In this document: one piece after another, positions 6,691 to 9,037 of the stretch
Layout: every line of letters starts with the position of its first letter
Position numbering within the stretch: the stretch's first letter is position 1
IMG/VR virus record: IMGVR_UViG_3300006805_000192
Coordinates: 1-21,395 of that record
Length of the DNA stretch: 21,395 nt
DNA from: a virus
Strand: one strand, 5' to 3'
The notes under the pieces: model-generated
What the model saw: only the letters and a program-made list of their open reading frames with translations
Database searches by the model: none
Told to the model about the DNA's origin: nothing
Position numbers and translations under genes: made by a program

Positions 6691-7754
6691 ATGTCAAGTT
6701 TACTACTGCTTAAAAACGCATCCAGACCATCTGTGGTGCGCATGCCTTTCTTGAAAAGATCGTTTATGTCTGTGCAAGAAGAATAAAAAGGGTTGAGTTT
6801 CTTAAATTTCGTCCATAGGAACACTCGTCTACCTTCTTTGAGGAGTTCGCTACCAATTTTGCGACCAGCCGTGTCATCATCTAGATAGTAATGGGCATCA
6901 TCTATCTTTATTATAGACCCAGTCCCCCAAGACGCCAAAGAGTTTGGAAAATGATGAGAGTTCACAGAAGACTCAAAAATGTTTAGGTTGTTCCTAAGAT
7001 CAACCCTGAGGATGTTGTACAACATGGAAATCCTTTTCACTTTATCTGCACCCTCTGGAACTTCTTGCTTCAATATTCTTTCGTAAATATCTTGGTAGCT
7101 AAAACTCAAAAATCTGGGTTTCGACTTGTCCTCCAATTTATACTTTCTTATCTGTAGACCTAAGACTTTTTCCGTTGTGGTCATATTAAAGAAGATAAGG
7201 TCTTTGTTCCTTGGATTTCCAGCAAGCCTAGTGTCGTAGATGTCTAGTTTTCTACTCTGAACATACTGCTTTATTTCTTGGTCTGCGAACACCTCCACCA
7301 GTCCCATTTTTTTCATCAGGACATCCCTTGGTACTAGTTTGTCTTTTATGTCATAAACATCGAAGATACTCATGGCCACATTGGATGATCTGTTTTGGCT
7401 AACAAATCCCTCAAGTGTGAACTCTTTGATGTAAACCGCAAGTTCTGAATCAAATTCCTCGAAGAAAGATTTAAGAGGCATCCATGGTTTGGGACACCCA
7501 CCGTTCCAGCACTTGTATGTACTTGTGTTTAAGTAGATTATACCGCGTTTTTTTGAGGCTGTCCTTTCACTGTCCCCACAAAACGGGCATGCTATCCTTA
7601 TCCTCTCACCACCATATTCTGGTTCTGGTTTCCTTTTTTCTGGGTGGTCGTGAACTTTTGTTAAGATCACTCTGAGTTCGTCCAAAATATTTTGTGAGTT
7701 TATCTCCTTTGAACTTTCCTCTTTAAAAAATAAATCAAATCCTATATCTTCCAT
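6678..7754 (-). CDS. gp61: DNA primase, gp61/DnaG type
   Basis: The product (358 residues from the ATG at 7754) should make RNA primers for lagging-strand synthesis with the replicative helicase. Residues 53-90 form a CHC2-type zinc ribbon with cysteines at 56, 59, 82 and 87 (ACPFCGDSE and KCWNGGCPK). The TOPRIM-type catalytic core includes YYLDDDTAGRKIG (290-302), the equivalent of the D-x-D metal motif, and the late TDINDLFKK element. T4 gp61 is 342 residues. The frame is open further upstream, but that extension crosses the gp32 terminator hairpin, so 7754 is the likely start. It lies downstream of gp32 and overlaps the GroES-like gene. Confidence 0.85.
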   Translation of the reverse strand: MEDIGFDLFFKEESSKEINSQNILDELRVILTKVHDHPEKRKPEPEYGGERIRIACPFCGDSERTASKKRGIIYLNTSTYKCWNGGCPKPWMPLKSFFEEFDSELAVYIKEFTLEGFVSQNRSSNVAMSIFDVYDIKDKLVPRDVLMKKMGLVEVFADQEIKQYVQSRKLDIYDTRLAGNPRNKDLIFFNMTTTEKVLGLQIRKYKLEDKSKPRFLSFSYQDIYERILKQEVPEGADKVKRISMLYNILRVDLRNNLNIFESSVNSHHFPNSLASWGTGSIIKIDDAHYYLDDDTAGRKIGSELLKEGRRVFLWTKFKKLNPFYSSCTDINDLFKKGMRTTDGLDAFLSSSKLDICNL

Positions 7755-7800: not shown

Positions 7801-7819
7801 CACAATGATGTTACTTGTT

Positions 7820-8956: not shown

Positions 8957-9037
8957 GATAAAAAATATTAAATAAAACTTAAACTAGAAAAACGGGTGCT
9001 TTTTGTATTTGTTGCACGTTTACCCGCAAAAAACGTG
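8957..9037 (-). promoter_or_regulatory. Putative gp32 translational operator: H-type pseudoknot plus AU-rich leader
   Basis: In the minus-strand RNA, CACGUUU (9037-9031) pairs perfectly with AAACGUG (9021-9015). The 9-base loop between them, UUUGCGGGU, contains GCGGGU (9027-9022), which pairs with ACCCGU (8997-8992; five Watson-Crick pairs and one wobble). The two stems abut with no spacer, and a 17-base A-rich strand, CAACAAAUACAAAAAGC, crosses from one to the other. This is the textbook H-type arrangement. The remaining 35 bases to the ATG contain only four G or C. T4 gene 32 is autoregulated through just such a leader pseudoknot followed by an unstructured AU-rich stretch. The first stem spans the stop codon of the upstream gene, so its translation would melt the fold. 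Confidence 0.65.

Follow-up and report, generated by a model that had tools for sequence, protein, structure and literature searches.

A candidate H-type pseudoknot in the leader of a gp32-like gene, with features of the T4 gene 32 operator

We analyzed a window of 21,395 nt (IMGVR_UViG_3300006805_000192, positions 1-21,395; coordinates below are window positions). On its minus strand, a gene for a gp32-like single-stranded DNA-binding protein is preceded by a short ORF and followed by a primase gene (Table 1). The 378-aa product matches PF08804 (E = 7e-9; 36.4 bits, cut-off 26.8), phrog_224, and, by sequence, the solved gp32 structures 2a1k/1gpc (E = 1e-7). Judging from these matches, it is a true homologue of gp32, as the original prediction held. 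That prediction also stated that the T4-style zinc cluster is missing, and the alignment bears this out: at the positions of the zinc ligands of T4 gp32 (His64, Cys77, Cys87, and Cys90), the window's protein has one cysteine only (C106). The KRKST motif near the N-terminus of T4 gp32 is likewise absent from the window's protein in this alignment.

The 213-aa upstream ORF had no match in Pfam, PHROGs, or phage proteins. It has a syntenic counterpart of 218 aa (23% identity) in L036, a related locus that is discussed below. Its position beside gp32 recalls gp59, and we found no similarity to gp59. Between gp32 and the primase gene lies a perfect 11-bp hairpin (7801-7775, minus strand), followed by GTATAAATG. 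For the primase, the ATG at 7754 is a more plausible start than the listed TTG at 7805.

Table 1. Genes and elements of the candidate fold at the gp32 locus (window positions).
Feature	Positions	Strand	Remarks
Upstream ORF, 213 aa	9661-9020	minus	between polymerase and gp32; TAA inside the pseudoknot
Stem 1, 5' arm CACGUUU	9037-9031	minus	7 pairs with the 3' arm
Loop 1 UUU	9030-9028	minus	read from the sequence
Stem 2, 5' arm GCGGGU	9027-9022	minus	5 Watson-Crick pairs plus a G9027-U8992 wobble
Stem 1, 3' arm AAACGUG	9021-9015	minus	adjoins the 5' arm of stem 2, 0 bases between
Loop 3 CAACAAAUACAAAAAGC	9014-8998	minus	17 nt, 11 of them A
Stem 2, 3' arm ACCCGU	8997-8992	minus	partner of GCGGGU
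AU-rich leader	8991-8957	minus	35 nt, 4 G/C, without a Shine-Dalgarno sequence
gp32-like single-stranded DNA-binding protein, 378 aa	8956-7820	minus	PF08804, phrog_224, gp32 structures

Just upstream of the gp32-like gene, the minus-strand RNA (9037-8992) can form an H-type pseudoknot with S1/L1/S2/L2/L3 lengths of 7/3/6/0/17, which would occupy the region from 81 to 36 nt 5' of the gp32 AUG (8956-8954). All of the elements that had been described for this fold are present, namely a stem of 7 pairs, a second stem of 5 pairs plus a wobble, no intervening base between the stems (L2 = 0), and an A-rich crossing strand of 17 bases. The 5' arm of stem 1 falls within the coding part of the upstream ORF, and the TAA of that ORF (9022-9020) straddles the junction between stem 2 and stem 1. 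An Rfam search of the site returned no family at E-values up to 1.

The 35 nt between the fold and the AUG are also as described, with only four G or C. Among the 26 leaders in the window this one has the lowest GC content, and only 0.03% of 35-nt segments are equally AT-rich. It is rich in U (two copies of UUUAA, none of UUAAA or UAAA), and we did not find a Shine-Dalgarno sequence in these 35 nt. Promoter-like TATAAAT motifs were also considered and set aside, as they occur at about the frequency expected by chance.

To score the fold, we used a scanner that searches exhaustively for H-type pseudoknots with Turner stacking energies. In a control scan, the best match in the leader was the known gene 32 pseudoknot in T4 and in RB69, and its equivalent in EcS1. 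The window's fold has a stacking score of −23.1, which was reached by 0 of 4000, 4 of 4000, and 8 of 4000 dinucleotide shuffles for leaders of 100, 150, and 200 nt, respectively, and by 1 of 2000 in a separate run with the 150-nt leader. Given a fixed stem 1, the second stem has p = 0.011. Across both strands of the whole window, about half a dozen sites score about equally or better, versus 0.6 per strand in shuffles; most of these consist of a long hairpin and a short stem 2. Strong leader folds also precede some other genes of these phages, for the most part with a long hairpin and a second stem of 4 bp. When 232 leaders are ranked by their weaker stem, the gp32 leader of Flavobacterium phage MaF61 comes first and that of the window third. 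Enrichment in gp32 leaders reached p = 0.04 at the strictest of four thresholds and was not significant at the other three.

By a crude estimate with Dirks-Pierce pseudoknot penalties, the best nested fold of the leader is more stable than the window's pseudoknot by 0.6-2.6 kcal/mol. For the genuine T4 pseudoknot, the identical estimate gives −1.1 to +2.9 kcal/mol relative to its best nested fold. Because these ranges overlap, folding energy neither proves nor excludes the pseudoknot.

The candidate resembles the gene 32 operator of T4 and RB69 (PMC535899, PMC3014915) in being an H-type pseudoknot with coaxial, adjoining stems in a gp32 leader, and in being followed by an AU-rich unstructured strand. 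Its distance from the AUG is also similar (35 nt, versus 39-45 nt in T4, RB69, and EcS1). The proportions differ: in the T4 type, S1 has 4-5 pairs, L1 is a single A, S2 has 7 pairs, and L3 has 4-6 nt, and no fold of these dimensions was among the best in the window's leader. The fold has no sequence similarity to the T4 operator, and the window's U-rich leader differs from the T4 type in having neither UUAAA/UAAA repeats nor a Shine-Dalgarno sequence. Of the T4-like architecture that was originally proposed, the H-type fold, the AU-rich leader, and the spacing to the AUG show a resemblance, and the stem and loop sizes are clearly different. The different sizes and the unrelated sequence speak against assigning the fold to the T4 gene 32 pseudoknot type and would make it either an analogue of the T4 operator or a form that has diverged far from it. 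It may work like that operator; membership in the T4 family is not demonstrable.

The stop codon within the fold had been proposed to add a layer of coupling to upstream translation. In T4, the stop codon of the upstream gene segG lies at the same S2/S1 junction (the overlap of segG with the pseudoknot is noted in PMC535899), so the stop codon in the window's fold is no added layer. Another point of comparison is the STAXI motif (PMC2864571), a pseudoknot that is also found by genes for a single-stranded DNA-binding protein (Ssb). STAXI occurs in two or three tandem repeats, whereas the fold described here is a single copy without an Rfam match.

We sought relatives in viral contigs and genome contigs and found one identical copy of the leader, the loci L036 and L038, the loci L037 and L047, and about 18 distant loci. 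The contigs scanned held no relative of the leader between 50% and 99% identity, and as the sole other copy that covers the leader is identical, no compensatory change is visible in either stem. The nearest cultured relative is MaF61 (33-35% identity for gp32 and 29.5% for DNA polymerase), in which gp32 is followed by a primase gene as in the window. Because this relative infects Flavobacterium, the window's phage probably has a host in the Bacteroidota.

The closest relatives with a syntenic leader are L036 and L038 (gp32 43% and polymerase 47% identical), which do not differ from one another in the 13 kb that were compared and share the window's gene order of polymerase, small ORF, and gp32. 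In L036, the spacing from the stop codon to the gp32 AUG (74 nt) is almost the same as in the window, with the two genes in different frames. Nevertheless, the L036 leader has no comparable fold (best score −9.6, p = 0.66; S2 given S1, p = 0.91): at the equivalent place there is a weak 5-bp A/U hairpin and no second stem. The original prediction had named homologous leaders with a broken stem as evidence against the fold, and L036 is such a leader; conservation thus gives the fold no support. Nor did the pseudoknot scan find a comparable fold in about 15 more distant gp32 leaders. The absence in L036 does not refute a function, because the genuine T4-type operator is patchy too: we found the T4-type fold in 3 of 8 Straboviridae gp32 leaders tested and not in the other 5, and RB49 has been reported to lack it (PMC535899). 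Among the Straboviridae, the gp32 leaders of Merlin, Thanatos-2, and PspYZU05 (L060, L062, and L064) are pseudoknot-free and contain repeated ACUGUWAA-like words instead.

The gp32 leader of MaF61 (L003, 5682-5741) contains a candidate pseudoknot of 11/4/7/0/20. Its score was not reached in any of 4000 shuffles, and S2 given S1 has p = 0.0056. Like the window's fold, it precedes a homologous gp32 gene and has a long stem 1, no base between the stems, and a long, A-rich L3 with UGCAACAA. Unlike the window's fold, it has 11 pairs in S1 and 7 in S2, lies 76 nt from the AUG, and follows a different upstream gene. Also, a plain hairpin is predicted to be about 3.5 kcal/mol more stable there than the pseudoknot, and for this reason we do not claim a conserved architecture. 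A T4-sized candidate (UGGU-U-GUCGUU/ACCA-UAU-AACGAC, 4/1/6/0/3; minus strand, record G001) lies in the gp32 leader of L047, at about 50-27 nt 5' of the AUG; L047 comes from the record of L037 (gp32 43% identical to that of MaF61). When only T4 dimensions are scanned, the candidate has p = 0.002; in the general scan it is not significant.

Words enriched in gp32 leaders are mainly A-rich, as fits leaders that are AU-rich throughout; the mild enrichment of AACAAAT and UAACAA is not significant once the roughly 3,000 words are taken into account. AACAA is found at or shortly 3' of a hairpin 3' arm in L3 of the window's fold and in the leaders of L003, L047, and L036. That these four closest gp32 leaders have it in common may be chance in A-rich sequence.

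The explanation that we tentatively prefer, while rating it somewhat short of probable, is that the fold is a translational operator of gp32 that works like that of T4, without being demonstrably related to it. By analogy, the leader RNA would fold into the pseudoknot in the cell, and gp32 in excess of the available single-stranded DNA would bind it as a nucleation site. The protein would then spread cooperatively over the adjoining unstructured, U-rich strand, cover the start codon, and stop its own translation. From the geometry, which T4 shares, translation to the end of the upstream ORF would disrupt stem 1 as well as the 5' arm of stem 2. The operator reading is favored by a fold that outscores about 999 of 1,000 local shuffles and whose second stem is also unusual given the first, by a scanner that independently recovers the known operators, by a real gp32 gene downstream, and by the placement of the window's lowest-GC leader directly between fold and AUG. 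The layout and ranking of the MaF61 candidate also count in its favor, as does the overlap in energy gap to nested folds between the window's fold and the genuine T4 pseudoknot. Against it are the lack of a comparable fold in L036 and the more distant gp32 leaders, the identity of the only other copy, the more stable plain hairpin in MaF61, the strong leader folds at other genes together with the marginal enrichment in gp32 leaders, and the absence of the T4 zinc ligands, KRKST, and UUAAA repeats.

It is quite possible, though slightly less so than an operator, that the fold is a product of chance: a pairing without function, at a place where the upstream gene's GC-richer end borders on an AU-rich leader. 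Equally good folds elsewhere in the window, strong leader folds before other genes, the closest relative without the fold, and a stem 1 5' arm that is coding sequence all speak for this account. It is harder to reconcile with a local probability of about 0.001, a conditional probability of about 0.01 for S2, the similar layout of the MaF61 candidate, and a site that is exactly where T4 has its operator. A structured role that does not need gp32 binding, such as attenuation or termination of transcription from upstream, or a stabilizer or processing site at the 5' end of the gp32 mRNA, seems unlikely. A short U-run does follow the 3' arm of stem 2 directly, terminator-type hairpins recur between genes of this phage (such as the one at 7801-7775), and stem 1 of MaF61 alone would be a long terminator-like hairpin, with a short U-run only. 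However, we set a terminator aside, as the site is absent from the output of the terminator scan. If stem 2 formed a simple hairpin, its loop would be 24 nt long; the nested folds available to the region are weak (−6.5), and the site matches no Rfam family. Finally, the pseudoknot overlaps the end of an ORF that is in the gp32 frame (TAA 9022, TAG 8986, AUG 8956), as might suit a signal for programmed frameshifting or readthrough. We rejected this very improbable alternative on geometry, as the stop codon and a U6 run lie inside the fold rather than 5-9 nt upstream of it. Also, none of the canonical slippery heptamers occurs in frame, ribosomes would need to get past two stop codons, and in L036 the two genes are in different frames.

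A gp32 without zinc ligands whose leader pseudoknot has other proportions than that of T4 would offer a direct test of what gp32 recognizes: sequence, topology, or just single-strandedness. The test would be in a lineage of phages that probably infect Bacteroidota, hosts that make little use of Shine-Dalgarno sequences. A 2010 review considered the T4-type gene 32 pseudoknot to be possibly the sole viral pseudoknot for translational autoregulation and called for work on diverse relatives (PMC3014915). The gp32-leader layouts that we compared are 7/3/6/0/17 in the window, 11/4/7/0/20 in MaF61, 4/1/6/0/3 (26 nt from the AUG) in L047, and none in L036. A speculative reading, which we consider improbable, is that in T4-related phages of Bacteroidota, pseudoknot operators in gp32 leaders arise independently and are replaced fast. 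If so, what gp32 recognizes would be topology together with an AU-rich tail, and not a sequence; the operator of T4 would then be a single instance of a solution that recurs.

Outside of gp32 leaders, the top score among 244 leaders belongs to a T4-sized candidate (CUGCC-UU-GUGGUG/GGCAG-UAUUU-CGCCAC) at about 833-861 of L005, 41 nt before a clamp-loader gene (PF16790, gp62-like). It is also present in L006, which is about 99.9% identical to L005.
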